A stretch of 38,842 bases of DNA from an uncultured Clostridia bacterium. GTDB lineage: Bacteria; Bacillota; Clostridia; Christensenellales; Borkfalkiaceae. Each line of letters opens with the position of its first letter. The first letter of the stretch is position 1. Shown here piece after piece: positions 3,567-31,947 of this stretch. The notes beneath the pieces were generated by a model. It had not been told where the DNA came from and searched no databases. It was given only the letters and a program-made list of their open reading frames with translations. The stretch lies in NCBI GenBank assembly GCA_947627955.1, contig CANQXZ010000010.1, positions 1-38,842 of the forward strand. The letters are read 5' to 3'. The position numbers and the translations under genes were made by a program.

Positions 3567-3646
3567 TAGTTCGGCGTAAATTTTCCGCCCCGCGGTCTTT
3601 CGCCGGGCCCGCGGGGCGGGCGGCGCGGAGAGCGGCTTCGAGTTAT
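3567..3646. other. Gene-free spacer with GC-rich hairpin
   Basis: No gene is seen between the divergent ATPase and aldolase promoters. An 11-bp GC stem (3585-3595 with 3609-3619, 13-base loop) lies here without a T tract on either strand, so it is not a clear terminator. Confidence 0.4.
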
Positions 3647-3678
3647 ATCCGCAAAATATATAAAACAATCCGTTTTGT
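3647..3678 (+). promoter_or_regulatory. Putative AraC-type operator upstream of the uronate operon
   Basis: A direct repeat ATCCGC (3647) and ATCCGT (3668) has a 21-bp period, the half-site spacing typical of AraC-family sites. The 32-bp block matches 31913-31944 upstream of the araC-type gene at 24 of 32 positions, including 12 identical bases (AATCCGTTTTGT, 3667-3678). It ends 3 bases before the -35 box, an activator position. Confidence 0.6.
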
Positions 3679-3681
3679 GAA

Positions 3682-3710
3682 TAGAAACGGGCGGTAATTT
3701 ATATTATAAT
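3682..3710 (+). promoter_or_regulatory. Promoter of the uronate catabolism operon
   Basis: A perfect -10 TATAAT (3705-3710) is preceded at 17 bases by a weak -35 TAGAAA (3682-3687). A weak -35 beside an upstream activator-type site fits a regulated promoter. The leader of about 70 bases has a small hairpin at 3731-3746 (CGCTAT/ATAGCG). Confidence 0.7.
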
Positions 3711-3786
3711 GTGTTCTGTGAAAATATGCACGCTATTATTATAGCGTTTATGAAAGCAGAAAAAACCGTAAAAAGTGGAGGATCGT

Positions 3787-4770
3787 ATGACAGTAAAAGA
3801 AAAGATCGACGCGCTTGTCGAAGAGCTCGGAAACGTGGGCATCGTGCCCGTGATAAAGCTCGACAAGGTGGAAAACGCCGTAAAACTCGCCAAGGCGCTG
3901 AGGGACGGCGGCATCAACTGCGCCGAAGTAACTTTCCGCGCGGCGGGCGCGGACAAAGTCATCCGCGCGATGACGGAGGCATATCCCGACATGCTCGTGG
4001 GCGCGGGCACCGTTCTGACCTGCGAACAGGCGGACGCGGCGTATGCGGCGGGCGCGAAATTCTGCGTGGCTCCGGGGCTCAACCCCAAGGTGGTTAAGCA
4101 CTGCCTCGACAAGGGCATACCCTTCGCCCCCGGGCTCTCTTCCGCGAGCGAGATTGAGCAGGCGCTCGAGCTCGGGCTCGACTTTGCCAAGTTCTTCCCT
4201 GCGGAGCAGGCGGGCGGGCTCCCCTACATAAAGTCGGTGTGCGGACCCTACACCACGATGCGCTTCATGCCCACGGGCGGCGTGACCGCGGACAACCTCA
4301 ACAGCTATCTGTCCTATAAGAAGATAGTCTGCTGCGGCGGAAGCTGGATAGTTCCCGCCAAACTGCTCGACGCCGAGGACTGGGCGGGCATAACCAAGCT
4401 CTGCCGCGAGGCGATAGACAAGATGCTCGGCTTCGAAATGGTGCACGTGGGGCTCAACTGCGCCGACGCGCAGGAAGCCGAAAGGGTCGCCGACGAGTTC
4501 GATACGGCGTTCGGCTTCGCCAAAAAAGTGGGCAACAGCTCGGTATTCGCCTCCACCTATGTGGAGATGATGAAAAAGCCCTTCAAGGGCACGAACGGGC
4601 ACATCGCCGTAGCCACGTATTCGGTAAAGCGCGCGCTCTACCAGCTCAAACTGCGCGGCTTCGAAGCGGACGAGAGCACCTTTAAGTACAACGCGGAAGG
4701 CGTTCTGAACGTCGCGTATCTCAAACACGAGTTCGGCGGGTTCGCCGTTCACCTCGTGCTGAAACACTGA
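3787..4770 (+). CDS. eda: KDPG/KHG aldolase with C-terminal VOC-like domain
   Basis: This class I aldolase splits 2-keto-3-deoxy-6-phosphogluconate into pyruvate and glyceraldehyde-3-phosphate, the last step of the pathway. The N-terminal ~210 residues carry the family residues: E47 and R51 in EVTFR, T75 in GAGTVLT, Schiff-base K135 in FAKFFPAEQ, and MPTGGV at 161-166. The protein is 327 residues, whereas Eda is normally ~210. Residues ~218-327 (MVHVGLNC..., NGHIAVATYSV) resemble a VOC/glyoxalase-fold domain of unknown role. The start was set at 3787 because GGAGG lies 5 bases upstream; a GTG at 3775 is in frame but overlaps that site. It is the first gene of the operon. Confidence 0.9.
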   Translation: MTVKEKIDALVEELGNVGIVPVIKLDKVENAVKLAKALRDGGINCAEVTFRAAGADKVIRAMTEAYPDMLVGAGTVLTCEQADAAYAAGAKFCVAPGLNPKVVKHCLDKGIPFAPGLSSASEIEQALELGLDFAKFFPAEQAGGLPYIKSVCGPYTTMRFMPTGGVTADNLNSYLSYKKIVCCGGSWIVPAKLLDAEDWAGITKLCREAIDKMLGFEMVHVGLNCADAQEAERVADEFDTAFGFAKKVGNSSVFASTYVEMMKKPFKGTNGHIAVATYSVKRALYQLKLRGFEADESTFKYNAEGVLNVAYLKHEFGGFAVHLVLKH

Positions 4771-4852
4771 CGCTTCCGCGCAGTTTCCCCGCAGGGAAGT
4801 CCCTGCCTCAACCCAAAACAAAAAAAATCATAAATATATGAGGAGAAAAATC

Positions 4853-5884
4853 ATGAAAAAGATCGTAACCATGGGCGAAATAATGCTTCGCCTTTCCACC
4901 CCCCACAACGAAAAGTTTATCCAGGCCGACGAATTCGACGTGAATTACGGCGGCGGCGAAGCCAACGTTGCGGTTTCCTGCGCAAACTACGGGCATAAAG
5001 CCGAATTCGTGACCGCCGTTCCCGACAACGAGATAGGCGAGTGCGCGGTGGCGGCTCTCCGCAAGTACGGCGTGGAAGTAGACCACATCGCAAGGTGCGG
5101 CGAAAGGCTCGGCATATACTACCTCGAAACGGGCGCGGCTATGAGACCTTCCAAGGTCGTTTACGACAGGGCTCATTCCTCCATATCCACGGCAAAAGCC
5201 TCCGATTTCGACTTTGACGCCATCTTCAAGGGCGCCGACTGGTTCCACTTCACGGGCATAACCCCCGCCGTTTCCGACGAGGCGGCAGTCCTCACCGAAG
5301 AGGCTCTCAAAGCAGCCAAAAAGCACGGCGTTACCGTCTCCGTAGACCTCAACTTCCGCAAGAAGCTGTGGTCGAGCGAGAAAGCCCAGAAAGTAATGAA
5401 GAACCTCATGCAGTACGTAGACGTGTGCATAGGCAACGAAGAGGACGCCGAACTCGTCTTAGGCTATAAGCCCGGCAAGACCAACGTCACGAGCGGCGAA
5501 CTCGAACTCGCGGGATACAAGTCCATATTCGAGCAGATGACCCGCGACTTCAAATTCAAATACGCCATCTCTTCCCTGCGCGTTTCGCACTCGGCTTCCG
5601 ATAACGGCTGGTCGGCGTGCATCTACAACGGCGCAACGGGCGAGTTCTATCATTCCAAGACCTACCGCATCAGCCCCATCGTCGACCGCGTAGGCGGCGG
5701 CGACAGCTTTGCGGGCGGCGTTATCACCGGCTTCCTCGACGGCAAGGACTTCAAAGCCGCCCTCGAATTCGGCGTTGCGGCTTCCGCCCTCAAACACACC
5801 ATCCCCGGCGACTTCAACCTCGTTACGAGGAAGGAAGTGGAGGCGCTGGCGGGCGGCGACGGCTCGGGCCGCGTTCAAAGGTAA
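4853..5884 (+). CDS. kdgK: 2-keto-3-deoxygluconate kinase (PfkB family)
   Basis: This is a 343-residue ribokinase/PfkB sugar kinase that phosphorylates KDG to KDPG, the substrate of the preceding aldolase. Visible motifs are the N-terminal GGGEANVA substrate-binding region (33-40) and the C-terminal anion hole GGGDSFAGG (281-289) with catalytic D284, followed by a conserved tail ending in GDGSGRVQR. The start at 4853 has AGGAG seven bases upstream; an in-frame ATG at 4838 precedes that site and is less likely. Its place between the aldolase and the isomerases in one operon supports KDG rather than another sugar acid. Confidence 0.9.
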   Translation: MKKIVTMGEIMLRLSTPHNEKFIQADEFDVNYGGGEANVAVSCANYGHKAEFVTAVPDNEIGECAVAALRKYGVEVDHIARCGERLGIYYLETGAAMRPSKVVYDRAHSSISTAKASDFDFDAIFKGADWFHFTGITPAVSDEAAVLTEEALKAAKKHGVTVSVDLNFRKKLWSSEKAQKVMKNLMQYVDVCIGNEEDAELVLGYKPGKTNVTSGELELAGYKSIFEQMTRDFKFKYAISSLRVSHSASDNGWSACIYNGATGEFYHSKTYRISPIVDRVGGGDSFAGGVITGFLDGKDFKAALEFGVAASALKHTIPGDFNLVTRKEVEALAGGDGSGRVQR

Positions 5885-6128
5885 AATAAACGTCGCATAA
5901 CTTCGTCGCGTTTGCGCACTCCTCGGTCACGTACGTCACTGTACGCTCCCGTCGTCGTTTGCGCACGCTCCTTGTTCTGCTCGTTTATTCCGACAAATTG
6001 CGTTGCGTTTAAGCGCGCTTCGGTCGCGTACGTTAAAGTACGTTCCCGTTGAGCGGGCGGACAAAAAATTCAAAATAACCGAAATCATCCGTGCGGGCTT
6101 TGCCGCCCGCACGGGAAGAGGTTTGAAA
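5885..6128 (+). repeat. Intra-operon spacer with two palindromic repeat elements
   Basis: The 244-base gap between kdgK and the next gene has no gene. It holds two copies of a short element with core CGGTCrCGTACGT...GTACGyTCCCG (5924-5951 and 6021-6048), each able to fold as CGTAC-N6-GTACG, with CGTTTGCGCAC directly repeated at about 5909 and 5956. The same core recurs at 13780 and 13983. A 9-bp stem (6090-6098 with 6105-6113) lies just before the ribosome binding site of the next gene. Confidence 0.7.
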
Positions 6129-6968
6129 ATGCAGATAGCATTCAGAACGCACGACCTCGGCGTGAGGGGTCTGGACGCGGCGGTCGAAAAACTGCACGCC
6201 TGCGGCATCTCCGCGGTGCAGCTCGTCGCGTACAAGTTCATGGACGAGGTCAAATACGCCCCCGGCGGCATCGACGGCGAAAAGGCGCGCCTTATCGGCG
6301 AAACTCTCAAAAAAGCGGGCGTTTCCGTCGGGCTCATAGGCGCATACTTCAATCCCGTCCATTCCGACGGCGAAAAGGTGGCGCGCTGCAAGGAAGTTTT
6401 CAAGGAATATCTGAGATATTCGCACCTTTTGGGGTGCCCCGTAGTCGGCAGCGAGACGGGCAGCTTCAACGACGACAAGTGGACTTATAATCCCCTCAAC
6501 CGCACCGAAGAGGCGCTCGGCAGGGTGATAGAGACCTTCCGCGAACTCGCCGAGTACGCAAAGAGCGTGGGCGCGTACGTGGGAATGGAGGGCGCCGCGG
6601 GGCACGTGTGCTACGACGTGAAGACGTTGAAGCGCGCGGTGGACGGCGTCGCGTGCGACAACGTGAAAGTTATATTCGACATATATAACTATCTCGACGC
6701 CTCCAACTACAAGGACTATCTTTCGATACTCGAAGAAGGGCTCTCCGTCTTTGCGGGCAGGATAATCGTGTTCCACATAAAGGACTGCGTGTTTGAGGAC
6801 GGGAAGCTGAGGCAGGTCGCGCCCGGCAAGGGAATGTTCGACTTCGGCAAGATCCTCGGCATGATAAAGGCGTACGACAAGGACGCCGTGCTCGTGCTCG
6901 AGGGCACCACGGGCGACGATATAGCGCCCTGCACGGACTTCATAAGAAGAAAATGGGAGGAAGTATAA
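6129..6968 (+). CDS. Sugar-phosphate isomerase/epimerase-like TIM barrel
   Basis: This 279-residue protein has the look of the AP-endonuclease-2/xylose-isomerase-like TIM-barrel family. Likely divalent-metal ligands are E154 (GMEGA), D184 (IFDIYN), H216 (FHIKD) and E258 (LEGTTG), in the usual E-D-H-E order. It probably interconverts a keto or aldo sugar, but its substrate is not evident. Because it sits between kdgK and kduI, uronate-derived intermediates are the obvious candidates, and it might cover a step for which no other gene is present. The start at 6129 follows AGAGG by 7 bases; the frame is open further upstream only through repeat DNA. Confidence 0.8.
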   Translation: MQIAFRTHDLGVRGLDAAVEKLHACGISAVQLVAYKFMDEVKYAPGGIDGEKARLIGETLKKAGVSVGLIGAYFNPVHSDGEKVARCKEVFKEYLRYSHLLGCPVVGSETGSFNDDKWTYNPLNRTEEALGRVIETFRELAEYAKSVGAYVGMEGAAGHVCYDVKTLKRAVDGVACDNVKVIFDIYNYLDASNYKDYLSILEEGLSVFAGRIIVFHIKDCVFEDGKLRQVAPGKGMFDFGKILGMIKAYDKDAVLVLEGTTGDDIAPCTDFIRRKWEEV

Positions 6969-6971
6969 ACA

Positions 6972-7841
6972 ATGAAATTCGACATAAGGTATGCAAATCA
7001 CCCCGACGACTCAAAGCATTACGACACAAAGGAACTGCGTGAAAAATACCTCATTAAAAAGCTGTTCGAGGAGGACGAGATACTGCTCACGTACTCCCAT
7101 CAGGACAGGATAATAGCGGGCGGTGCGATGCCCGTTAAAAAGACGCTTTCCCTCGGCACTTTCAAGGAACTCGCCACGGCGTATTTCCTCGAAAGACGGG
7201 AGATGGGCGTTATAAACATCGGCGGCGACGGCGTCATCACCCTCGACGGCAAGAAGTGGGAGATAGGACATAAGGAAGGCATATATATAGGGCTCGGCAC
7301 GAAGGAGATAGAGTTCTCCTCCCGCGACGGCAAAAACCCCGCCAAGTTCTATATCAACTCCTGCCCCGCGCACAAGGCGTATCCCACGGTCAAGATAGTA
7401 AAGCCCGTGGAGGGGAAAGAGCCTCCCGCGGGCACGAGATACTGCGTGCAGAGGCATCTGGGCGACCTCGCTTCCATCAACAAGCGCACCATCAACCAAT
7501 TCATAATAGGCGACGTGTGCGAGAGCTGCCAGCTCGCGATGGGAATGACGGAGATAGCCGAGGGCTCGGCATGGAACACCCTTCCCAGCCATACCCACGA
7601 GAGGAGAATGGAAGTATACATGTACTTCGAGCTCCCCGAAAACGAGGCGGTCATCCACCTCATGGGGCAGCCCCGCGAGACCCGTCACATAATAATGCAC
7701 AACGAGCAGGCGGTCATCTCCCCGAGCTGGTCTATCCACAGCGGCGTAGGAACGCACAACTACACCTTCATTTGGGGAATGTGCGGTGAAAACCAGACGT
7801 ACGACGATATGGACAATATCGCCACGTCCGACCTCAGATAA
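6972..7841 (+). CDS. kduI: 5-keto-4-deoxyuronate isomerase
   Basis: This cupin-fold isomerase converts 5-keto-4-deoxyuronate, released by unsaturated uronyl hydrolases and lyases, into 2,5-diketo-3-deoxygluconate. At 289 residues it is close to the normal ~278. The Zn2+ ligands are visible as H207, H209 and E214 (in SHTHERRME) and H256 (SIHSGVG). GGAGG lies 11 bases before the ATG and the gene starts 3 bases after the previous stop. It links the GH105 product made downstream in this window to KDG formation. The usual partner reductase KduD is not in the window. Confidence 0.95.
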
Positions 7842-7916
7842 AATTCCGCGGAGGGCGCCCTGCGCGCCGCGGGTAAATAAAATAATCAAAAATTTATATA
7901 GGGGAAAATAAATAAA
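7842..7916 (+). other. GC-rich intra-operon hairpin
   Basis: An inverted repeat CCGCGG...CCGCGG with a GGGCGCCC palindrome inside lies at about 7846-7873, just after kduI, with no T tract. It may protect or process the mRNA between kduI and the ATPase gene. The ATPase gene's own AGGGG site is rather far from its ATG (about 12 bases). Confidence 0.4.
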
Positions 7917-9014
7917 ATGGCACATCTTTTATTCAAAGGAATCAACAAAGTGTATCCCAACGGGTTCCACGCGGTGCATGATTTCAACCTCGAGATCAAG
8001 GACGGCGAGTTCATCTGTCTCGTAGGTTCGTCAGGCTGCGGAAAGTCCACCACCCTCCGTATGGTGGCGGGGCTCGAGGATATAACGGCGGGCGAGTTCT
8101 ATATCGACGGTAAACTCGCCAACCAGATGTCGTCGAGGGAGAGGGGGATCGCGATGGTATTCCAGTCCTACGCGCTCTATCCTCACCTCACGGTGTACGA
8201 AAATCTCGCGTTCGGGCTCACGCTCGAGGGCATCGACGCCGACGTCATAGAGGAAAAAGTTCAGGCGACGGCGAAGATACTCGGACTTACCGACTATCTC
8301 GAAAGGTTCCCCCGCGCGCTCTCCGGCGGTCAGTGCCAGCGTGTCGCGGTCGGACGTGCGCTCATAAGAAAGGTCTCCATCTTCCTTATGGACGAACCTC
8401 TCTCCAACCTCGACGCCAAGCAGCGCGTTACGATGCGTTCCGAGATCAAGCAGATACACCGTTCCGTCGGCGCGACTACGATATACGTCACCCACGACCA
8501 GACCGAAGCCATGACCATGTCCGACAGGATAGTCGTTATGAACGCGGGCAGGATCCAGCAGGTGGGCACTCCTTACGAGCTGTATTTCCACCCGCAGAAC
8601 CTCTTCGTGGCAGGGTTCATAGGCGAGCCTCCCATGAACTTCATACGCGGCACGGTCGAAAACGGCAAGCTCACCGTCGGCGAGCTCTCGCTCGACCTCA
8701 AACCCATAGTCAAGGACGTAAGCTCCATAGAGGGCAAAAAGATCGTGTTCGCGTTCCGTCCCGAGGCGATAGAAGTCGATCCCGAGGACAAGAATTGCTA
8801 CATGATCGATTCGCAGGTGGATCTGACCGAGCTTCTCGGCGACACGACCAACGTCTATGCGAACGTCGGCGACGTGAACGTCATACTCAAAGTCAATCCC
8901 CACAAGACCCCCGAGATGGGCGCGTCCTTCAAGTTCGCCGTTCCCTACAAGGCGGCGTATGTGTTCGACGCGGAGACCGAACTCGCGGTCGAGAGCGATT
9001 TGGAAAGACACTGA
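7917..9014 (+). CDS. Carbohydrate ABC importer ATPase (MsmX/UgpC type)
   Basis: This 365-residue cytoplasmic ATPase energises an ABC sugar importer. Walker A GSSGCGKST is at 37-45, signature LSGGQ at 135-139, Walker B IFLMDEP at 155-161 and the switch histidine is H193. A C-terminal TOBE/MalK-like regulatory region follows from ~230. It lies in the catabolic operon with no permease beside it, so it must serve permeases encoded elsewhere, possibly the cluster at 16-24 kb, which also has its own ATPase. Multitask ATPases of this type are known (MsmX). It resembles the ATPase at 22108 and the two may be interchangeable. Confidence 0.93.
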   Translation: MAHLLFKGINKVYPNGFHAVHDFNLEIKDGEFICLVGSSGCGKSTTLRMVAGLEDITAGEFYIDGKLANQMSSRERGIAMVFQSYALYPHLTVYENLAFGLTLEGIDADVIEEKVQATAKILGLTDYLERFPRALSGGQCQRVAVGRALIRKVSIFLMDEPLSNLDAKQRVTMRSEIKQIHRSVGATTIYVTHDQTEAMTMSDRIVVMNAGRIQQVGTPYELYFHPQNLFVAGFIGEPPMNFIRGTVENGKLTVGELSLDLKPIVKDVSSIEGKKIVFAFRPEAIEVDPEDKNCYMIDSQVDLTELLGDTTNVYANVGDVNVILKVNPHKTPEMGASFKFAVPYKAAYVFDAETELAVESDLERH

Positions 9015-9191
9015 CAGCGGCGTGCGCCGTACGGGCGGCACGGGGCGCGCTCCATGCCGCGGCGGCGGGATAAAATGACCGCCGCTTATTCCGCACGGCG
9101 CGTTTTGCCTGCGGTTTTAAAGAGCTGGGCGCAGTTTGCGCGCCCGCGGGGCTTTGACGAGCCCGCCAAATAAATTTCCGGAGTAAATTTT
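9015..9191 (+). other. Intra-operon spacer
   Basis: This 177-base GC-rich gap sits between the ATPase and tagaturonate reductase genes. I see no promoter, terminator or small gene in it beyond the CGGAG ribosome binding site for the next gene. Confidence 0.4.
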
Positions 9192-10643
9192 ATGGAGCTT
9201 TTAAGTAAAAAGATAATCAGAAACGTGCCCGACAGGAAGATAAAGATAATGCAGTTCGGCGAGGGCAATTTCCTTCGCGCGTTCGTCGAGTGGATCTTGC
9301 AGGACCTCAACGATAAGGGGGCGATAGAGGCGAACGTGGCTGTGGTCCAGCCCATGCCTTTCGGCAGAGTGGGCGAACTCAAAGCGCAGGACGGGCTGTA
9401 TACCCTCCGCCTCGAAGGCATAGACGGCGGCAAGAAGGTGAAGAGGAGCCAGATAATCAACGTGATAGGCGACTGCGTGAATCCCTTCACCGAATACGAG
9501 AGGTTCCTCCAATACGGCGAGAGCGAGGACCTGCAGATAATAATTTCCAACACCACGGAGGCAGGCATAGCCGTAGACCCTTCCGACACCGACTTTTCGG
9601 CTTGCCCCAAGAGCTATCCGGGCAAACTTCTCGCGCTTTTGAAGAGGAGATACGATAAGTTCGGGGGCGACCCCGGAAAGGGTCTCGACATAATCCCCTG
9701 CGAGCTCATCGACAACAACGGCGACGAGCTGAAAAGGTGCCTGACGGAGCTCGCGCACATCAATAAGATGGACGAAAAATTCGTGGATTGGGTGAGAAAC
9801 TGCAACCACTACACGTCCACCCTCGTAGACAGGATCGTGCCCGGCTATCCCAAGACCGAGATAGAGGACATACAGAAGGAGACGGGATATATCGACAACA
9901 ACGTCGTAAAGGGCGAGATATTCCACCTCTGGGTGCTCAAAAAGGAGCCGCACATCCAGAAATCGCTGCCTGCGGACAGCACGGGGCTCAACGTCATCTT
10001 TGCAGACGACATAAAGCCCTATAAGCAGAGAAAGGTAAAGATACTCAACGGCTCGCACACCGCGATGGTGCCCGTCGCATATCTGTGCGGCATAGACACC
10101 GTCGGCGAAGCCGTGAACGACAAGGTGATAGGCAAGTACGTGCGCGACTTCGTGTTCGACGAGGTAAATCCCACCATCGACCTCCCGCAGGACCAGATGA
10201 CGGCGTTCGCGAACAGCGTAATAGAGAGATACCAGAATCCCTATATCCGCCACGAGCTCATGTCCATAGCCCTCAACTCCACCACCAAGTTCAAGACGAG
10301 GCTTCTGCCCACGCTCGAGGACTATGTGCGCATAAAGGGCGCCCTGCCCAAGCACCTGCTGTTCTCGTTCGCGGCGATAGTCGTGTTCCACAAGGGCAAG
10401 AGGGGCGCGGAGGACATAGCGCTCAAAGACGACCCCGCATATCTCGAGGGCTGGAAAAAGCTCTGGGCGGGCTTTAAGGGGGACTACAAAGCCCTCGCCC
10501 GCGAAGCCCTTGCATGGAAAGAGGCGTGGGACGTGGACATGAACGCCATTCACCCCGAGATAACGGATACTGTCGCCGGATATATCGAGGCGATAGAGAA
10601 GAAGGGCATGAGAGCCGCGGTAGAGGAATTCGTCAATGGTTAA
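9192..10643 (+). CDS. uxaB: Tagaturonate reductase (altronate oxidoreductase)
   Basis: This 483-residue mannitol-dehydrogenase-family enzyme reduces D-tagaturonate to D-altronate with NADH. The N-terminal nucleotide-binding motif FGEGNFLRAFVEW is at 22-34. The family's catalytic K-x4-N-x2-H is present as K281, N286 and H289. UxuB (fructuronate reductase) is a related possibility, but the adjacent altronate dehydratase points to UxaB. CGGAG precedes the ATG by 8 bases. The gene overlaps uxaA by 8 bases, so the two are probably translationally coupled. Confidence 0.92.
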   Translation: MELLSKKIIRNVPDRKIKIMQFGEGNFLRAFVEWILQDLNDKGAIEANVAVVQPMPFGRVGELKAQDGLYTLRLEGIDGGKKVKRSQIINVIGDCVNPFTEYERFLQYGESEDLQIIISNTTEAGIAVDPSDTDFSACPKSYPGKLLALLKRRYDKFGGDPGKGLDIIPCELIDNNGDELKRCLTELAHINKMDEKFVDWVRNCNHYTSTLVDRIVPGYPKTEIEDIQKETGYIDNNVVKGEIFHLWVLKKEPHIQKSLPADSTGLNVIFADDIKPYKQRKVKILNGSHTAMVPVAYLCGIDTVGEAVNDKVIGKYVRDFVFDEVNPTIDLPQDQMTAFANSVIERYQNPYIRHELMSIALNSTTKFKTRLLPTLEDYVRIKGALPKHLLFSFAAIVVFHKGKRGAEDIALKDDPAYLEGWKKLWAGFKGDYKALAREALAWKEAWDVDMNAIHPEITDTVAGYIEAIEKKGMRAAVEEFVNG

Positions 10644-12108
10644 AAAGACTATAATCATCAACCCTCTCGACAACGTGGCAGTGGCGCTTACCGACCTGAA
10701 AAAGGGCGAAAAGCACGAGGGCGTCACGCTTGCCGAGGACATAACAAAGGGTCACAAGTTTGCGCTCAGACCCATAAAAGAGGGCGAGCATATCATAAAG
10801 TACGGCAATCCCATAGCCTATGCCACCAAGGCGATAGGCGTTGGCGAGCACGTGCACACGCACAACGTGCACACCAACCTCAAAGGGGAGCTCGAATACA
10901 CCTATCACAAGGTCCCCACCGACCTCAGACCGGCTAAGCCGAGGAAAGTGAGGGTGTATCCCCGCAGTAACGGCGACGTCGGCATAAGGAACGAGCTGTG
11001 GGTGATCCCCACCGTCGGCTGCGTCAACGGACAAGCCAAGCTCATCGTGGAGACCTTTAAAGAGCAGTACGGCACCGAGGGCTTCGACGGGATATTCACC
11101 TATACCCATCCCTACGGCTGTTCCCAGCTCGGCGACGACCACGAGAGGACGAAGCTCATCCTGCAAAAGATAGTCCGCCATCCCAACGCGGGCGGCGTGC
11201 TCGTGCTCGGGCTCGGCTGCGAAAACAACCAGATGGCGGCGTTTAAAGCGAGCCTCGGCGAGGTGGACGGCGACAGGATCAAGTTCCTCGTCTGCCAGGA
11301 AGTGGAGGACGAGATAGCGGCGGGCGTGGAGCTCTGCCGCGAGATCGCCTCGGTGATAAAACACGACAAGAGGGAGGAAAGGGATATATCCTGCCTCAAA
11401 GTCGGCTTGAAGTGCGGCGGCTCGGACGGGCTTTCGGGGATCACCGCAAATCCCCTTGTGGGCAGATTTTCCGACTATATCGTCGCGGCGGGCGGCACCA
11501 CGGTGCTCTCGGAAGTTCCCGAGATGTTCGGCGCGGAACAGCTGCTCATGAACAGGGCTAAGGACGAAGCCACGTTCAAAAAGGTCGTCCGCCTCATAAA
11601 CGAGTTCAAGGAATACTTCATCCGCAACGGGCAGGAGGTGTACGAAAACCCCTCCCCCGGCAACAAGGCGGGCGGTATAACCACTTTGGAGGACAAGTCT
11701 CTGGGGTGCACGCAGAAGTCGGGCTCGGGACCCGTGGAGGACGTCGTTTTCGACGACGGATTCGTCACGCACAAGGGCTTGAACCTGCTCAACGGTCCGG
11801 GCAACGACATGTGCGCCGTCACCAACATAGCGGCGGCGGGTTGCCACCTCGTGCTGTTCACGACGGGGCGCGGCACTCCTTTCGGCGGGTTTGTGCCCAC
11901 CGTAAAGATAGCCACCAACTCCGACCTTGCCAAAAACAAAGCCAATTGGATAGACTTCAACGCGGGCGCCGTGCTCGACACCGACTTCGATACGCAGCTT
12001 GAAAAGCTCATCGACCTCGTCGTGGAAACGGCTGACGGCAAGCCCACCAAGAACGAACTCAACGAGACCAAAGAAATTGCTATATTCAAAACGGGGGTGA
12101 CCTTATAA
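10636..12108 (+). CDS. uxaA: Altronate dehydratase
   Basis: This 490-residue UxaA/GarD-family enzyme dehydrates D-altronate to 2-keto-3-deoxygluconate. It has the N-terminal SAF domain (~1-85, HTHNVHTN at 75-82) and the main domain opening with YPRSNGDVGIRN at about 111-122. Length equals that of the E. coli enzyme (~495). It overlaps uxaB by 8 bases and touches uxaC by one base (TAATG), an arrangement for tight coupling of consecutive pathway steps. Confidence 0.95.
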   Translation: MVKKTIIINPLDNVAVALTDLKKGEKHEGVTLAEDITKGHKFALRPIKEGEHIIKYGNPIAYATKAIGVGEHVHTHNVHTNLKGELEYTYHKVPTDLRPAKPRKVRVYPRSNGDVGIRNELWVIPTVGCVNGQAKLIVETFKEQYGTEGFDGIFTYTHPYGCSQLGDDHERTKLILQKIVRHPNAGGVLVLGLGCENNQMAAFKASLGEVDGDRIKFLVCQEVEDEIAAGVELCREIASVIKHDKREERDISCLKVGLKCGGSDGLSGITANPLVGRFSDYIVAAGGTTVLSEVPEMFGAEQLLMNRAKDEATFKKVVRLINEFKEYFIRNGQEVYENPSPGNKAGGITTLEDKSLGCTQKSGSGPVEDVVFDDGFVTHKGLNLLNGPGNDMCAVTNIAAAGCHLVLFTTGRGTPFGGFVPTVKIATNSDLAKNKANWIDFNAGAVLDTDFDTQLEKLIDLVVETADGKPTKNELNETKEIAIFKTGVTL

Positions 12109-13520
12109 TGAAAGAGTTTATGGATAAAGATTTCCTTCTGGACACCGAAACGGCTAAAAAGCTCTATCACGAGCACGCCGAAAAGATGCCCATAATAGAC
12201 TATCACTGCCACCTGCAGCCCAAAGAGATATATGAGGACAAGAAGTTCAGGAACCTTGCCGAAGTATGGCTGGGCGCGGGCGACAGATACGGCGACCACT
12301 ACAAGTGGCGCGCCCTCCGCGCGAGGGGCTACGAGGAGGATTCCATCTCGGGTCCCGACGACGACTACAAGAAGTTCATGCAGTTCGCGGAGAGCATGCC
12401 CTATTTCGTGGGCAATCCCCTCTATCACTGGTCCCACCTCGAAATGCGCAGATATTTCGGGATAGAGGACATAATAAACGCCGAAAACGCCCCCAAGATC
12501 TGGGAAAAGGCGAACAAGGTGCTCGAAACGCTGACCGCGCGCGAGATGATGTATAAGTTCAACGTGAAGACGGTGTGCACCACCGACGACCCCGTAGACA
12601 GCCTCGAATGGCACAAGAAGATGAACGAGGACAAGACGCTCAAAGTGCGCGTCCGCCCCGCCTTCCGTCCCGACAAGGCGATAAACGTGGAGCTCTCGTG
12701 GTTCAAAAGCTGGGTAGACCAGCTCGCCGGAGTGGTCGGCAGACCCATAAATTCGCTCGAAGATCTGCTCGGCGCCCTCGCGGAGAGGATAAAGTTCTTC
12801 GATTCGATGGGCTCCAAGCTCTCCGACCACGCGCTCGACGTCGTCTGCTACGCGCCCTCCACCTATGAGGAAGCCAACAAGATATTCCTCAAAGGCATGA
12901 AGGGAGAGCACATCACCGCGGAAGAGCAGGATAAGTACAAGGGCTATGTGCTCATCGCGCTCGCAAAGGAATATGCGAAGTACGGCTGGGTGCAGCAGTA
13001 TCATATCGGCGCGCTCCGCAACAATTCCAAGAGCATGCTCGAAAAGATCGGTCCCGACACGGGCTACGACGCCATAGAGGACGCCGTATACATGGAAAAG
13101 CTCTCCGCCCTCCTCGGCGAGATCGACAAGGACGGCAATCTTCCCAAGACCATCCTGTACTGCCTCAATCCCCGCGACAACTATGCGCTCACGGTGCTCG
13201 CCGGCTGCTTCCAGAAAGAGGGAGTAAAGGGCAGGGTGCAGGTCGGCACGGCATGGTGGTTCCTCGACCAGCAGGACGGCATGCGCCAGAACCTCGAAAC
13301 GCTGATGCAGGTCGGGCTCGTCGCGCAGTCCGTGGGAATGCTCACCGACAGCCGTTCCTTCCTCGCATATCCCCGTCACGAGTATTACAGGCGCATTCTC
13401 TGCCAGATGCTCGGCAGGCTCGTCGAGAGCGGGCAATATCCCGCCTCCGAACTGCCCCGCCTCGGGAAGATAGTGGAGGATGTGTGCTATAACAACGCCG
13501 CGGAATACTTCGGATTCTGA
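12108..13520 (+). CDS. uxaC: Uronate (glucuronate/galacturonate) isomerase
   Basis: This 470-residue amidohydrolase-fold isomerase converts D-galacturonate to D-tagaturonate, and D-glucuronate to D-fructuronate. The N-terminal metal motif DYHCHL gives H33 and H35, and the length is the same as E. coli UxaC. It is the entry step of the galacturonate branch although it is the last gene of the operon, directly upstream of a strong terminator. Its stop-start overlap with uxaA is one base. Confidence 0.95.
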   Translation: MKEFMDKDFLLDTETAKKLYHEHAEKMPIIDYHCHLQPKEIYEDKKFRNLAEVWLGAGDRYGDHYKWRALRARGYEEDSISGPDDDYKKFMQFAESMPYFVGNPLYHWSHLEMRRYFGIEDIINAENAPKIWEKANKVLETLTAREMMYKFNVKTVCTTDDPVDSLEWHKKMNEDKTLKVRVRPAFRPDKAINVELSWFKSWVDQLAGVVGRPINSLEDLLGALAERIKFFDSMGSKLSDHALDVVCYAPSTYEEANKIFLKGMKGEHITAEEQDKYKGYVLIALAKEYAKYGWVQQYHIGALRNNSKSMLEKIGPDTGYDAIEDAVYMEKLSALLGEIDKDGNLPKTILYCLNPRDNYALTVLAGCFQKEGVKGRVQVGTAWWFLDQQDGMRQNLETLMQVGLVAQSVGMLTDSRSFLAYPRHEYYRRILCQMLGRLVESGQYPASELPRLGKIVEDVCYNNAAEYFGF

Positions 13521-13530
13521 TAAAGTTCAC

Positions 13531-13566
13531 AAAAATTGCGGAGCCTTTGCGGGCTCCGCAATTTTT
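13531..13566 (+). terminator. Terminator of the uronate catabolism operon
   Basis: A perfect 15-bp stem (13531-13545 with 13552-13566) has a 6-base loop and ends in a five-T run, 10 bases after the uxaC stop codon. Confidence 0.93.
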
Positions 13567-14110: not shown

Positions 14111-15046
14111 TCAATTCATACCCTTAAACCGCGCGTCCGCGGCGTTTATAATTTCATTTGTTTCCCCGCGCGAGAGTTCCCTGCTCCAATCCACGGGCGA
14201 CAGGGCTGCGGCGGAGGAGAGCCCGCAATGGCGGAACCTCGCCGTCTTGTCGCGCGGCGTGTCGTTCCACTTGTCGTAGAGCGCGGCGTTGATGTGTGCG
14301 CCTATGCTGCAATCTATGAATTCGCATTTACCGAAGTCCCTCCACGGTCTTGCAAGGTAAACCGTCCCGTCCGCGGCGCCGCGCGAGGTGAAGTTGCAGC
14401 CCAAAAACACGAATCCGCGTTCCTGTTTGAGCGAGTGGGCGGGCGCCGCCACGAAGCCGTAGCCCCGCGGGTCGGCGAGGGAGATCAGCTCGCAGTTTTT
14501 GAAATACGCCTCGGCGCAACCGAAAATGAAGTCCACGGTGCCGAAAATGCGGCAATTTTCGAAGAGGTGGACCGCTCCGCCCTCGAGATAGAGCTGCTTT
14601 TCGGGGATAAACCCGCGGTAGCGCACCACGAGGTCGTCGGGGAAGGGCGCGACGAAGAGCGTGTCCTGCGTGGATCTGAGGTCCACGTCTTTGGCGTAAA
14701 AGTTCCGCGCGTTTACTGAGAGCGCCACGCACTGTCCCGCGACGTGCGGGTCGGGGGTGGAGTTCTCCACGGTGAGATTACGAAGTTTTACGTTTTCGCC
14801 CGTAATGCAGAGGGTGTAGGTGCGGAAAGTGTTGTATTCCCTGCCGTCCTCATGTATTTTTCGCGCGTAATCGTCGTAAGTTATTATGGTTGTTTCACGG
14901 TTTTCGCCTATCAGTGAAACATTGTCCCGTGAAATTTCGCATTTGAGCCTGTAAACGCCCGCGGACAGATATATTGCGGTCGGGCTCGCTGCGTCATTCA
15001 ATATTTCCGCCAGATCGTCGGCGGGGGTGACGTGCAGTTCCTGCAT
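14111..15046 (-). CDS. Cytoplasmic pectinesterase (CE8)
   Basis: This 311-residue right-handed β-helix methylesterase removes methyl groups from galacturonate residues. Motifs in order are GQCVAL (104-109), QDT (127-129, catalytic D128), GTVDFIFG (169-176, catalytic D172) and LARPW (231-235, R233). No signal peptide is present: the protein starts MQELHVTPADD directly before the helix. It therefore probably acts on imported methylated oligogalacturonides rather than on polymer outside. AAAGGAGGA lies 5 bases before the ATG. It is divergent from the transporter cluster, with back-to-back promoters. Confidence 0.93.
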   Translation of the reverse strand: MQELHVTPADDLAEILNDAASPTAIYLSAGVYRLKCEISRDNVSLIGENRETTIITYDDYARKIHEDGREYNTFRTYTLCITGENVKLRNLTVENSTPDPHVAGQCVALSVNARNFYAKDVDLRSTQDTLFVAPFPDDLVVRYRGFIPEKQLYLEGGAVHLFENCRIFGTVDFIFGCAEAYFKNCELISLADPRGYGFVAAPAHSLKQERGFVFLGCNFTSRGAADGTVYLARPWRDFGKCEFIDCSIGAHINAALYDKWNDTPRDKTARFRHCGLSSAAALSPVDWSRELSRGETNEIINAADARFKGMN

Positions 15047-15072
15047 ACTTTTCCTCCTTTAAACGCGAGCTA

Positions 15073-15101
15073 ATTATAGCACATTTTTTTTCGTGAAACA
15101 A
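15073..15101 (-). promoter_or_regulatory. Pectinesterase promoter
   Basis: On the minus strand, TTGTTT (15101-15096) and an extended -10 TGCTATAAT (TATAAT at 15078-15073) are separated by 17 bases. The expected start near 15066 gives a short leader with a strong ribosome binding site. Confidence 0.8.
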
Positions 15102-15112
15102 TAAAAAAAGTA

Positions 15113-15141
15113 TTGATTTTTAAAAATGCCTATGTTATAAT
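15113..15141 (+). promoter_or_regulatory. Promoter of the transporter cluster
   Basis: TTGATT (15113-15118), a 17-base spacer and TATAAT (15136-15141) with an extended -10 TGT make a strong promoter. Its -35 is only 11 bases from that of the divergent pectinesterase promoter. A palindrome AATGTAACATT (15160-15170) sits ~12 bases past the expected transcription start and could be an operator. Confidence 0.82.
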
Positions 15142-15204
15142 GAGTAAGCTAAATGTAAAAATGTAACATTCTGCGGTCATTAAAAATGTCCGATTTGATT
15201 ATAT

Positions 15205-15897
15205 ATGCGTAAGAACGGTTCAAGATTAATCTCATTCAAGCAATATCGCATAACCGACTTACTCCTGTTCGCGCTCATACTTACCATATTTGATATGATA
15301 GCCCATTTTGCCCCGATAGCGCTTAAACAGGGCGCCGACTACACGTTTGTGCTCACCGTACCGATAGTGTTGCTGATAATGATAAGATGGGGTTGGCAAA
15401 GCGCGCTGTTCGCCGTGGGCGACGGGCTGTTGCTCAGCGCTTTGAACAATACGGGGGTCTGGCAATCGTATGTAAGTTATGCCGTAGGCAACAGCTTCAT
15501 TCTCCTTCTCCTTGTCGCCGTCAGATTTATCGGCAAGGAAAAAATAACAGGAAAGTGGTTCTTTTCTGTTGTGTTTGTCATTTCAGGGTGGATATTGCAG
15601 ATATTGGGCGTAACGCTGATGATGTGGATAACCACGGGCGGAGACTTTCTGGGTTATCTTGCCGCGAATGCGGGGTTCGGCGCTACGGGGCTTATCTCCC
15701 TCGCCGTAGGGATAGCGCTGTTTTTGGTGCTGAGGCGGCTTGACGGAATGGTGGAGGACCAGAAGCACTACCTTTTAAGGCTCGATGCGGAGCGGAAAGA
15801 GGCTATGCGGCGCGACGAGTTCGGGGACGAGCCCATTGAACTTGACGAAGAGTCGATTTCGATAATCAAAAGGGACGAAAACGATTTCCATAAATAA
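15205..15897 (+). CDS. Membrane protein, ECF S-component-like
   Basis: This 230-residue protein has about six predicted membrane segments (roughly 17-36, 46-61, 64-80, 87-108, 117-141 and 148-176) and a charged cytoplasmic tail from ~178. The size, segment count and glycine-rich RWGWQSALFAVGDGLLL stretch resemble substrate-binding S components of energy-coupling-factor transporters, but I cannot assign it with confidence. It is the first gene after a strong promoter and 120 bases before two ABC permease genes. No Shine-Dalgarno site precedes the ATG at 15205, so initiation may be weak or leader-structured. Confidence 0.65.
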   Translation: MRKNGSRLISFKQYRITDLLLFALILTIFDMIAHFAPIALKQGADYTFVLTVPIVLLIMIRWGWQSALFAVGDGLLLSALNNTGVWQSYVSYAVGNSFILLLLVAVRFIGKEKITGKWFFSVVFVISGWILQILGVTLMMWITTGGDFLGYLAANAGFGATGLISLAVGIALFLVLRRLDGMVEDQKHYLLRLDAERKEAMRRDEFGDEPIELDEESISIIKRDENDFHK

Positions 15898-16017
15898 TAT
15901 GTCTGTTTATTTGAACAGACCGCGCGTCAGGGATATTTATCTGATAAGGTAAACCGCGGACAACCGCTTTTACAAATAATTACTTAAACTTTTAAGTGAT
16001 ATGGAGGAAAATTTTCA
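15898..16017 (+). promoter_or_regulatory. Spacer with two inverted repeats before the permease genes
   Basis: Two perfect inverted repeats are visible: GTCTGTT/AACAGAC (15901-15920, 6-base loop) and ACTTAA/TTAAGT (15982-15997, 4-base loop). Neither has a T tract. A TTGAAC overlaps the first, but no good -10 follows at the right spacing. They may be operators or mRNA hairpins. GGAGGAAAA before 16018 is the ribosome binding site of the permease. Confidence 0.45.
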
Positions 16018-17094
16018 ATGTTCAAACTCAAGTATGACGACTTCCTTGTCTACGATGAGGCGACCGGAACATATTCTATGTCGCCCGAACAGCAGGTAAG
16101 GGATCAAACAGAGAAGAACAGATGGAAGAACGTCGGATGGACGGTTCTTAAAGATTGGCGCCTTTATATCATGCTCGTACCCATGTTGCTCGTGTATATC
16201 CTTTGGAAATACGCGCCCATGTACGAGCTTATGGGCTGCTTTAAGGACCCCACCACGGGCGACACCGAACATGTTGCCACTTATTCGTGGGTAGGTCTGA
16301 GGTACTTTGAAGAGATCTTTACGGGGCTTGAGAGCAATTTGTTCTGGCGCGCTTTCCGTAATACGTTTATAACCGCGTTTTACGGTTTGCTTTTCGGATT
16401 TCCCATGCCTATAATCCTCGCACTCTTCTTCAACGAGGTCAGGTCCAACATAACGAGATCGGTCATACAGGTATGCGTATATCTGCCCAAGTTCCTTTCT
16501 ACGGTTATAGTAACGTCGCTTGCGCTGATACTTTTCCGTGGTACGGGCGGCGGCGTCCAGTCGATAGGCGTCGTATCCAAGGTATTCCAGCTCTTCGGCG
16601 CTTCCAAGGCGGATCTTGAAAACGGTCTTGTGTTCACGACGCGCTATTACAGGACGATATATGTAATAACCGACCTGTGGGAGCATGCGGGCTATGACTC
16701 GATAGTGTTCTTCGCCGCGGTAATAGCCGTATCGCCCACCTCGTACGAGGCGGCGCAGATAGACGGCGCGGGCAAGATGGCTCAGATGAGATACGTTGTA
16801 ATTCCTTCTATCCTTTCCACAGTCGTCATAATGCTCATAATGAAGATAGGCGGACTCCTCTCCGTAGGCTACGAAAAGATTTACCTGTTATACGGGCAGG
16901 GCGCAGGCCAGAATATACAGAACAACTATGCCGCGTGCGACGTTGTTTCAACGCTTGCCAACCGCTGGTCGGATGACGCGGACACCAAGGCGTGCGGTAT
17001 CGCAGCCGAGATGATGAACAACCTCATAGGTATGATCCTCGTCCTCGGTGCAAACTCCATAGCCAAGAGAGCTTCGGACGTATCGCTGTACTAA
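16018..17094 (+). CDS. ABC sugar permease, LplB/YtePQ type
   Basis: This 358-residue inner-membrane permease of an oligosaccharide ABC importer has about six membrane segments from residue ~50. The cytoplasmic EAA loop (SYEAAQIDGAGK...IP at about 242-262) docks the ATPase. A ~45-residue hydrophilic N-terminal extension precedes the first segment (LYIMLVPMLLVYILW). LplB/YtePQ-type permeases are common for uronate-containing oligosaccharides, fitting the pectin context. GGAGG lies 10 bases upstream of the ATG. It pairs with the permease starting at 17113. Confidence 0.92.
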   Translation: MFKLKYDDFLVYDEATGTYSMSPEQQVRDQTEKNRWKNVGWTVLKDWRLYIMLVPMLLVYILWKYAPMYELMGCFKDPTTGDTEHVATYSWVGLRYFEEIFTGLESNLFWRAFRNTFITAFYGLLFGFPMPIILALFFNEVRSNITRSVIQVCVYLPKFLSTVIVTSLALILFRGTGGGVQSIGVVSKVFQLFGASKADLENGLVFTTRYYRTIYVITDLWEHAGYDSIVFFAAVIAVSPTSYEAAQIDGAGKMAQMRYVVIPSILSTVVIMLIMKIGGLLSVGYEKIYLLYGQGAGQNIQNNYAACDVVSTLANRWSDDADTKACGIAAEMMNNLIGMILVLGANSIAKRASDVSLY

Positions 17095-17112
17095 GGAGGG
17101 AGAAAGGGTATT

Positions 17113-18042
17113 ATGAAGAGAAAAATCGAAAAATCCGAACTTATATTCAAGATCGTAGCGTACTTCTTCCTCATAGTGTTTGCGGCGATGTGCATTTATC
17201 CCCTGCTGTATGCGCTCAGCGCGGCGTTCTCCTCGGGCAGCGCGGTGGACACCGGCAAGGTGGTCATCGTCCCCATAGATGTTACGGGAGCCGCATTCAT
17301 GTCGGTAGTTCAGGATAATATGTTCTGGGTCAACTATGCAAACACCTTGTTTGTGACCTTCTTCGGAACGGTGTGGGCGCTCGGCTATTCCATACTCGGC
17401 GCATATGCGCTCTCCAAGAAGAGGTTGCTCGGCAGACACGGCTGGAACTTCGTGCTCGTATTCACGATGTGGTTCTCCGCAGGTATAATTCCCCAATATC
17501 AGAACTACATGCAGACAGCCGACATCTTTGCGAATCTCGGAATAGTCGACCTCAAGTGGACCATCATAATAGCGATGGGCATGAACGCGACCAACATAAT
17601 CCTTCTCCGCAACTCCTTCGAGGGCGTGCCCTCCGAGATAGAGGAGGCGGCGAGGATAGACGGCGCTACCGAAATGCAGATCCTCACCAAGGTATACATT
17701 CCCATGAGCAAGGCGACTATCGCAACAGTCGCGCTCTTCTTCGGGATCTCCCGCTGGAACGGCTACTTCTGGGCTTTCAAGGTAGTGGACTACGATCACA
17801 GGTTCTCTTGGCCCGTGCAGGTTTATATCCGCGACTACATAAATAAGTATACTTCCATAGCGGGCGAAGCCGATCCGACCACTGTAGACGACAGAATGTA
17901 TTGGTACGACACCCACTCGTATGCAGCCGTTTCGGCAGTGTACTCCATGGTCATCTGCGCCATAATCCCCATCCTTGCGATATACCCCTTCATTCAGAAG
18001 TATTTCGCAAAGGGCGTCAACATGGGCGGCGTAAAGGAATAA
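17113..18042 (+). CDS. ABC sugar permease, YtcP/MalG type
   Basis: This 309-residue partner permease has about six membrane segments. The EAA loop is IEEAARIDGATEMQI...IP (around 176-197). AAGGAGGG ends about a dozen bases before the ATG, 18 bases after the previous stop. With the 16018 product it would form the heterodimeric channel, fed by the binding lipoprotein encoded next. The substrate is inferred from context to be pectin-derived oligosaccharides. Confidence 0.93.
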   Translation: MKRKIEKSELIFKIVAYFFLIVFAAMCIYPLLYALSAAFSSGSAVDTGKVVIVPIDVTGAAFMSVVQDNMFWVNYANTLFVTFFGTVWALGYSILGAYALSKKRLLGRHGWNFVLVFTMWFSAGIIPQYQNYMQTADIFANLGIVDLKWTIIIAMGMNATNIILLRNSFEGVPSEIEEAARIDGATEMQILTKVYIPMSKATIATVALFFGISRWNGYFWAFKVVDYDHRFSWPVQVYIRDYINKYTSIAGEADPTTVDDRMYWYDTHSYAAVSAVYSMVICAIIPILAIYPFIQKYFAKGVNMGGVKE

Positions 18043-18106
18043 TAAAAAGTTTAATTCGGCGAATAACCGCAATTATAAAACAAAAAATCAATATAAGGAG
18101 AAAAAT

Positions 18107-20737: not shown

Positions 20738-20789
20738 TCGTAAACCTGTAAAGCCAACGCGGAATGCGTTGACGGCCGAACAAAACAAT

Positions 20790-20818
20790 GGGGCGCCCGC
20801 GCGGGGCGCGGGCGCCCC
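20790..20818 (+). other. Strong GC hairpin after the binding-protein gene
   Basis: A perfect 13-bp stem (20790-20802 with 20806-20818) has a 3-base loop and no T tract. It lies between the abundant-type binding protein gene and the membrane protein genes. Such stems commonly protect the 3' end of the upstream message and lower expression downstream. Confidence 0.6.
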
Positions 20819-20846
20819 AAATCCTTTCGGGGGGAAATTTTAAAAA

Positions 20847-21485
20847 ATGAAAACTCAGATGAGATTCCAGAAGTATATATGCCTTGCGATGCTGATACTC
20901 GGCGCGCTCGGCTTATTATACGCGTTTATGTATTGTACGGGCGGCCTTTCCGAGCTCGGCAGGAACATAATTGCCGAGGGCGACCAGAAAGTGTCCACTT
21001 TCGAGGCAGCCGAGGGCAAATATGACGCCTTTATGTACAACAGAGTACAGCCTTTCAATAACGCGATGATGTATTGCGGAATAGTGATGGTGCTGCTTGC
21101 GGCGCTCCTCTTTGCAACGGCGTCGCATTCGAGGAGGAATTACTACATAACCAACTATATCGCCACGGGGCTCTGCAGCGTGAGCAACATAGTTATGTCG
21201 GTCATCCTCATGGTCTACAATACATATTGGAAGGGCGAATTCCTTAAAGTGGATTTTGCGGCATGGGATAGCTATGTTCAGGAAAGGATCAACATGGGCT
21301 TCAGCGTTGCCGACCAGCATTTCAGCGATTCCACGCTTTGGTTTAATATAGGATATGTGGTGTACGCCCTCATAATCGTGGGTTCGATACTCCTTATCCT
21401 CAATATGGTTTGGAAAATAATGCTTATGCGCGGTGAAAAGAAATTGCTCAACGGCAATGCCACCGTGAAGGAGGTAGCGGCATGA
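20847..21485 (+). CDS. Unassigned 4-TM membrane protein A
   Basis: I do not recognise this 212-residue protein. It has four predicted membrane segments (about 10-29, 73-92, 101-124 and 167-191), with hydrophilic stretches of ~43 residues between the first two and the last two, and a short basic C-terminal tail. GGGGGGA precedes the ATG. Its stop overlaps the next start (ATGA at 21482), so it is translationally coupled to protein B. It lies within an ABC importer cluster, between the binding protein and the ATPase, and may be an accessory importer subunit. That role is inferred from position only. Confidence 0.8.
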   Translation: MKTQMRFQKYICLAMLILGALGLLYAFMYCTGGLSELGRNIIAEGDQKVSTFEAAEGKYDAFMYNRVQPFNNAMMYCGIVMVLLAALLFATASHSRRNYYITNYIATGLCSVSNIVMSVILMVYNTYWKGEFLKVDFAAWDSYVQERINMGFSVADQHFSDSTLWFNIGYVVYALIIVGSILLILNMVWKIMLMRGEKKLLNGNATVKEVAA

Positions 21486-22108
21486 AAGGTCAGAAACCCG
21501 AAATAAATCCCGTTATCGGACACGATATACTGCGTTATAAGAAGAATAAATTCGGAGCGAACCTCGCTCTCGGCGGGCTTGCCTGCGGTTGCATATACTT
21601 CATGTTTTTATATGCGGTATTCAACACCAACAGGAAATACGGAGAGGATTTCTTCTTCTATTGGAAGCCCGCGAACGGACAGTTCGGCGGCTGGGGAATT
21701 GCCTTTGACGTAATTTACAACCTGTTCTTCCTGCTGCTTGTGTTCCTCTGCTCCGAGCAGGTCAAAAACTACAACAGAAAGCTGTTTATACCCCAGATAG
21801 TGGTAGGCGCTTTGCAGTTTGCGAGAATTTTCTGGCATCCTTTCACCGGGTTCAAAGCCGGCATAGTGGAGCCTGCAAAGTTTGTTATCATGGCTATCGC
21901 GCTTGCGGCTTCCGGCGCGCTCATAATAGCGTCTGCCATAATCGGCTATCTCCGTTCGAAGGAGGTTGAGGAATTCAACAAGACTATCGAAAACGGCGAA
22001 GTCGACATTATGGCGGTAGTAAAAGAGCTCGACGAAGAAGACGAAAGGGCAGCAGCCGCGGCGGCGGAGGCGGTTGCACCTGCCGGGAATAACGAGGAGG
22101 TGCAATAA
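21482..22108 (+). CDS. Unassigned 4-TM membrane protein B
   Basis: This 208-residue protein of unknown family has four predicted membrane segments (about 27-47, 72-91, 102-118 and 133-157). A cytoplasmic acidic and Ala-rich tail follows from ~160 (KELDEEDERAAAAAAEAVAP). It overlaps protein A by 4 bases and the ATPase gene by 1 base, so A, B and the ATPase should be made in fixed proportion. It resembles A in size and segment count. Partnership with the ATPase is likely but inferred. Confidence 0.8.
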   Translation: MKGQKPEINPVIGHDILRYKKNKFGANLALGGLACGCIYFMFLYAVFNTNRKYGEDFFFYWKPANGQFGGWGIAFDVIYNLFFLLLVFLCSEQVKNYNRKLFIPQIVVGALQFARIFWHPFTGFKAGIVEPAKFVIMAIALAASGALIIASAIIGYLRSKEVEEFNKTIENGEVDIMAVVKELDEEDERAAAAAAEAVAPAGNNEEVQ

Positions 22109-23205: not shown

Positions 23206-23216
23206 GGAGGGTAAAA

Positions 23217-23825: not shown

Positions 23826-23849
23826 CATTAACGGAAAACCAATGAGAGT

Positions 23850-23884
23850 AATAACCGGCAAAATTATTTTTGTCGGTTATTTTT
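23850..23884 (+). terminator. Terminator/attenuator before the hydrolase genes
   Basis: A 14-bp stem (23850-23863 with 23868-23881, one G-T wobble) has a 4-base loop and is followed by Ts. The ribosome binding site of the next gene starts only a few bases later, so partial read-through is likely, giving lower hydrolase than transporter expression. Confidence 0.75.
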
Positions 23885-23897
23885 CAAGAAGGTAAAA

Positions 23898-26115: not shown

Positions 26116-26116
26116 C

Positions 26117-31912: not shown

Positions 31913-31944
31913 ATCCGTATTATATCATATAAAATCCGTTTTGT
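31913..31944. promoter_or_regulatory. Putative AraC-type operator in the regulator's own promoter
   Basis: Direct repeats ATCCGT (31913) and ATCCGT (31934, plus-strand reading) have a 21-bp period. The 32-bp block matches 3647-3678 at 24 positions. It covers the -10 box and overlaps the -35, a position expected to repress. Confidence 0.6.
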
Positions 31945-31947
31945 CCA
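31919..31947 (-). promoter_or_regulatory. Promoter of the AraC-type gene
   Basis: On the minus strand, TGGACA (31947-31942) and TATAAT (31924-31919) are 17 bases apart. The expected transcription start is at about 31912, the A of the start codon. Confidence 0.78.

Follow-up and report, generated by a model that had tools for sequence, protein, structure and literature searches.

Two similar 32-nucleotide sequences occur in the 38,842 nucleotides of DNA analysed here (the window), which come from a gut-type clostridial bacterium, one (3647-3678) directly beside the promoter of eda, the first gene of a presumed uronate operon, and the other (31913-31944) over the promoter of a gene for an AraC-type regulator, which raises the question of whether the regulator controls the operon and its own gene through a common operator. 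The operon is presumably transcribed as a single unit, comprising eda, a kdgK-type kinase gene, a gene for a TIM-barrel protein, kduI, an MsmK/UgpC-type ATPase gene, uxaB (tagaturonate reductase), uxaA (altronate/galactarate dehydratase family) and uxaC (glucuronate isomerase), and is followed in the sequence by a hairpin and then a T-run at about 13531-13566. UxaC, UxaB, UxaA, KDG kinase, KDPG aldolase and KduI belong to the established pathway that converts galacturonate into pyruvate and glyceraldehyde phosphate. The coordinates of these features, and of the operators proposed below, are collected in Table 1.

Table 1. Positions of the genes, promoters and predicted operator elements in the window
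Feature	Position	Strand	Remarks
Predicted 44-bp eda operator, upstream of the operon and in reverse orientation to eda	3642..3685	-	40.2 bits, second best in home genome
Half-site 1 at eda: TTCA, N6, GGATT; promoter-proximal	3667..3681	-	
Half-site 2 at eda: TATA, N6, GGATA	3646..3660	-	
eda promoter: weak -35 TAGAAA 3682-3687, 17 bp, -10 TATAAT 3705-3710	3682..3710	+	
Presumed uronate operon	3784..13520	+	presumably one transcript
Rest of pectin locus: pectinesterase (-), ABC permeases and ATPase, GH28, GH88/105-type hydrolase	14111..27247	.	
AraC/XylS-family regulator, 239 aa	31193..31912	-	HTH_18 and HTH_AraC above Pfam cut-offs
Predicted 44-bp operator over the AraC gene's own promoter and start codon	31908..31951	-	42.7 bits, profile R1, best site of home genome
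Half-site 1 at araC: box A TGGA, N6, box B GGATT	31933..31947	-	boxes assigned after the XylS layout
Half-site 2 at araC: box A GATA, N6, box B GGATA; last A is the A of ATG	31912..31926	-	
araC promoter: TGGACA 31947-31942, 17 bp, TATAAT 31924-31919	31919..31947	-	predicted +1 is the A of ATG

A preliminary description of this DNA had reported that the two sequences are identical at 24 of 32 positions, share a run of 12 identical bases, contain ATCCG direct repeats with a period of 21 bp and lie beside one promoter and over the other, all of which is borne out by direct comparison; in both, two direct half-sites lie 21 bp apart. The next best 32-mer against either site, on both strands of the window, matches at 19 of 32 positions, and one 32-mer, at a match probability fixed at 0.29, is expected to have 0.0076 chance matches of at least 24 of 32 over the two strands of the window. 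Yet the real window holds 522 same-strand pairs of 32-mers at this level of identity or above, versus 2, 4 and 19 in three block-shuffled copies, so that the raw match proves little: by itself it is weak evidence, and the comparison across the genus decides. It is this abundance of pairs that would favour an accidental resemblance of two AT-rich promoter regions, an explanation which raw identity does not exclude but which is ruled out by the conservation of both places across the genus, with the far-side flanks of the eda site nearly devoid of information; the probability we assign to it is negligible. The same comparison leaves the two shared copies in place while revising their length, the conserved element being about 44 bp rather than 32 bp. 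The pattern of each half-site is TNNA-N6-GGNTA, repeated with a 21-bp period that leaves N6 between the half-sites, with a looser box A in the second half-site at araC. A shared promoter rather than an operator was also considered and rejected, as the eda copy runs opposite to eda and has no counterpart of the -10 hexamer of the araC copies.

At the regulator gene, conservation was followed in 30 AraC loci, home included, obtained from a family-wide search of 301 genomes. A site fitting the core pattern with at most four mismatches is found upstream of the AraC frame in 27 of these, at a distance of 349 bp in one case (L030); L006, L012 and L015 have no upstream site within four mismatches, a degenerate copy being visible in the latter two. 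An alignment anchored on the start codon, involving no motif selection, could be made for 22 of the 30 loci, home included, after leaving out seven that lack an ATG at the computed start and L015, which duplicates L012. Its consensus is TATRGACAAAACGGATaTtTTaTGgTAtAATACGGaT, with the ATG following directly. In all 22 loci a TATAAT-like hexamer stands 6 nt before the ATG (TATAAT in 13, TAAAAT in seven, TAATAT and TATTAT in one each), and the -35 matches TTGACA at five of six positions. The first box B starts with GGAT in 18 loci, and the second fits GGNTA in 21 (GGATA 15, GGTTA 2, GGCTA 2, GGGTA 2), the remaining locus having AGCTA. Self-similarity within this unselected set peaks at a shift of 21. 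Such a layout predicts that the AraC message is leaderless, starting at its own start codon. A similar TATAAT-N6-ATG arrangement precedes another gene in one related genome (G327:C76).

The second class of site was found by a pattern search over 61 genomes of the genus, from which 40 stretches around matches were fetched. The site is upstream of eda in 30 and of kdgK in two; the other eight, which have neither gene nearby, were dropped from the eda set before counting (L065, L066, L083, L084, L085, L088, L089 and L090). In G184 and G268, where no eda orthologue was found, the site lies before kdgK. A site of at least 20 bits is present within 450 bp upstream of eda in 44 of the 47 genomes with an eda orthologue, home included, among the 61 examined. 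Sixteen of the 47 eda upstream regions were outside the class-B matrix, some of these having also matched the initial search pattern: 14 score between 29.7 and 51.9, that of G122 scores 18.9, and that of G169, at 8.1, falls inside the range of 800 simulated sequences (maximum 9.4).

Conservation around these sites is sharply confined. When 49 eda or kdgK upstream regions, home included, are aligned on the site, the mean information per column is 1.03 bits within it versus 0.05 for the 60 bp beyond it, away from the promoter; towards the promoter the mean is 0.31 bits, the site edge and the -10 region standing out and a weak signal appearing just past the -10. The distance from site to TATAAT in these 49 is nearly fixed, at 26 nt in 37, 25 nt in six, 27 nt in three and other values in three, and an exact TATAAT is found 24-28 nt from the site in 48. 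The -35 hexamers of 48 such promoters match TTGACA at a mean of 3.7 of six positions, taking the best of three spacers. Self-similarity of the 32 eda and kdgK sites also peaks at a shift of 21, in a set that had been picked with a 21-bp pattern, and the second half-site at eda carries GGATA in 18 of the 32. The predicted eda half-sites are directed away from the promoter and span about -71 to -36, counted from the predicted start.

The specificity of the motif was gauged with a profile, R1, which was scanned over the 61 genomes. Its 58 source sites comprise the pair in the window and many others that were later re-found; the tests outside this profile are the 16 left-out eda upstream regions and the start-anchored araC upstream regions. 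In the home genome R1 scores the araC site at 42.7 bits and the eda site at 40.2, followed by 15.3 among the matches listed, which extend far below 20 bits, both top sites being part of the model. Across all 61 genomes, 95 matches reach at least 20 bits: 42 at AraC, 44 at eda, two at kdgK and seven elsewhere. One outcome that the preliminary description named as refuting, a motif present at many unrelated promoters, is not observed: the home genome has two high-scoring sites, and 88 of the 95 matches in the genus fall at AraC, eda or kdgK. Nor is a second, a lack of conservation in relatives that carry both loci, the site being conserved there with exceptions. As the genome scan used strict filters, under which true sites may be missed, the exceptions should be read accordingly: 11 of 53 genomes with AraC lack a site of at least 20 bits there, some sites being degenerate, for example those at AraC in G064 and G249, and 3 of 47 with eda lack one at eda.

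The seven matches elsewhere are varied. Two lie inside reading frames (G122:C6 and G259:C4), one directly before the ATG of another gene (G327:C76) and one before an apparent AraC remnant (G327:C21), while those on G189:C7, G189:C3 and G272:C12 are the sites of L083, L084 and L088. The L084 site is inside a long reading frame, GH3-like by eye, the sequence of L090 being nearly identical, and the L083 site is at the 5' end of a frame that is phosphoesterase-like by eye, the sequence of L088 being similar.

An orthologue of the regulator (at least 131 bits) is found in 53 of the 61 genomes, home included, and one of eda in 47; both occur in 47, AraC only in six (G104, G184, G214, G268, G282 and G305), eda only in none and neither in eight, a joint presence with a Fisher P of 1e-6, uncorrected for kinship. 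Seven of the eight genomes without either orthologue have no 20-bit site. The exception is G327 (65% complete), where an intact operator and promoter stand before what seems, by eye, to be a short AraC remnant made up of the start and a later piece (L181, G327:C21, 1463-1640), which tblastn with the AraC protein did not detect; an eda orthologue was not found in this genome.

The regulator is a member of the AraC/XylS family by its DNA-binding domain. The C-terminal double helix-turn-helix is present (PF12833, 57.7 bits against a cut-off of 33.6; PF00165, 43.4 bits against 26.6), with the best stretches at residues 155-235 for HTH_18 and 200-228 for HTH_AraC, and its sequence relatives in the PDB include MarA and GadX. 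Residues before 155 have no Pfam match at E<=0.001, and the N-terminal half is assumed to contain an effector-binding domain. Of NCBIfam models, 21 match at E<=0.001, including AraC, RhaS, RhaR and PocR, none reaching its cut-off. In the home genome the protein's sole match at E<=0.001 is itself. This protein probably binds the paired sites. Alternatively, another DNA-binding protein might own both, the AraC gene being just one of its targets; such a protein is very improbable, given that direct repeats at 21 bp with XylS-type boxes are an AraC/XylS architecture and that the AraC and eda orthologues are kept or lost together.

The position of the regulator relative to its presumed target becomes clearer when the locus is compared between genomes. 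In G149, G309 and G189, which were read end to end, the whole locus is syntenic, bounded by the AraC gene and by the eda operator, and the order AraC, GH105, GH28, ABC and membrane genes, pectinesterase, uxaC, uxaA, uxaB, msmK, kduI, the TIM-barrel gene, kdgK, eda is kept. The tie between regulator and pathway put forward in the preliminary description is supported, whereas its long-distance character is not, 28 kb being the length of one locus in which the regulator is local. A scan of the window reveals no third operator, the next score being -8 versus 55.9 and 46.4, so the transporter and hydrolase genes have no site; these neighbours probably answer to another control.

Several other features of the locus may be recorded. 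The eda product (3784-4770) is 328 aa long, of which about 115 aa form a C-terminal extension past the aldolase models, which end near residue 206-214. Matches in G189 and G272 cover only query residues of about 10-73 and 188-327, apparently within a single open frame (212 or 217 aa), so that the extension is kept there and the aldolase domain is mostly missing. The gap between uxaC and the pectinesterase gene (13600-14080) contains apparent tandem repeats, with overlapping reading frames that share recurring peptide phrases. A gene for a calcium-type P-type ATPase occupies 741-3365, directed away from the eda promoter, and 14 of the 32 eda/kdgK loci have a match to it next to the site.

It is likely that both copies are operators of the regulator encoded at 31193-31912, bound by it as a dimer that activates the eda operon and represses araC. 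The dimer would occupy both half-sites of the 21-bp direct repeat. Its place at eda would be about -71 to -36, beside a poor -35, where it would recruit RNA polymerase, so that the eda-kdgK-kduI-msmK-uxaB-uxaA-uxaC operon would be switched on when a pectin-derived sugar acid is present; activation is suggested by the near-constant placement of the site beside a weak -35. At araC the same dimer would cover both promoter hexamers and the start codon (-35 to +1) and turn the gene off, negative autoregulation being suggested by this full cover of a good promoter. A location beside or overlapping the -35 is as in class II activators, and would suit an activating role. The box A and box B repeats of XylS are ordered along the direction of transcription at Pm, and those at eda run opposite to this; hence the class II analogy to XylS at Pm is inexact. 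Other points that weigh against the reading are the genomes without a 20-bit site at AraC or eda, the G169 score within the simulated range, the absence of an operator from the transporter and hydrolase genes in the window, and the lack of a Pfam match in the N-terminal half of the regulator.

The same geometry might instead indicate that the regulator represses both genes, the eda -35 being blocked until an inducer releases the protein. The promoter-proximal eda half-site abuts the -35, the 44-bp element overlaps it, and the half-site orientation is unlike that described for XylS at Pm, all of which would fit such a scheme. Against this, a poor -35 at eda contrasts with a good one at araC, and 46 of 49 upstream regions have the -10 at 25-27 nt from the site, as would be expected for contact with RNA polymerase rather than for blocking. 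Repression at both genes is accordingly judged unlikely, and activation at eda with autorepression at araC is retained as the preferred reading. A more elaborate version of it can be offered as a doubtful though possible proposal: a dedicated two-site regulon, each genome having a single site for autorepression and a single site for the operon, in which the dimer would activate from the usual place beside the -35 (-71 to -36) but, both half-sites being reversed with respect to XylS at Pm, would turn its other face to RNA polymerase, and a leaderless regulator message would have its start codon inside its own operator.

For the use of pectin sugars in this genus, these results propose which protein regulates, what its operator looks like and which operon it targets, and they supply a motif for seeking this switch in other genomes. 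A by-eye match of 24 in 32 has been raised to a firm operator call through comparison of relatives, and the operator pair is well supported as a prediction, to which the binding protein, the direction of control and the inducer are added as the probable reading. The mechanism looks like a textbook one, the new element apparently being the assignment of an ordinary sugar switch to this regulator and locus. No title or abstract opening found in the open-licence literature, which is the literature to which any judgement of novelty is limited, names such a regulon.

Related arrangements are found outside the genus. Two Oscillospiraceae MAGs (L108 and L109) have a regulator of about 30% identity beside the same GH105-GH28-ABC genes (around 9927-10717), with TATGGACAAAAC retained upstream; by eye, the second half-site is unrecognisable and a Shine-Dalgarno-like leader is present. 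In another genus (G051, L192, 1875-1918), the first half-site and promoter are recognisable directly before the ATG of an AraC relative, the site scoring 29.0 with the araC matrix and a kdgK relative lying nearby.

Among characterised systems, the AraC protein of Escherichia coli, with its operator position at araBAD and its autoregulation, is similar in being a sugar regulator with direct half-sites that activates a catabolic operon and represses its own gene, as is proposed here. It differs in that no distant looping site appears in the window scan, and in that the present regulator scores 32.8 bits against an NCBIfam AraC cut-off of 208. The box sequences are also different, the E. coli half-sites being given as TAGC-N7-TCCATA in one study (PMC4514859). 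The operator of XylS, from the Pseudomonas TOL plasmid, is written in that study and another as two direct repeats, TGCA-N6-GGNTA-N6-TGCA-N6-GGNTA (PMC4514859, PMC5481539). The likeness is in the AraC/XylS family and the direct repeats at 21 bp, with box A relaxed in the present sites: TGCA itself serves as box A in 4 of 32 first half-sites at eda and 0 of 22 at araC, the others being only TNNA-like. The differences are that the eda half-sites are directed away from the promoter, that XylS and Pm concern aromatics rather than a sugar-acid locus, and that a second copy lies here on the regulator's own promoter. The closest published proposal among the literature compared is PecR of Caldicellulosiruptor bescii, an AraC-family protein proposed for extracellular pectate lyases, in a species whose galacturonate steps are attributed to a DeoR-family protein, UxaR, and an IclR-family protein, KdgR (PMC8579813). 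By that account, the two systems share a proposed AraC-family control of pectin genes in a Firmicute, but PecR would be directed at pectate lyases, and the switch proposed here at the galacturonate steps.
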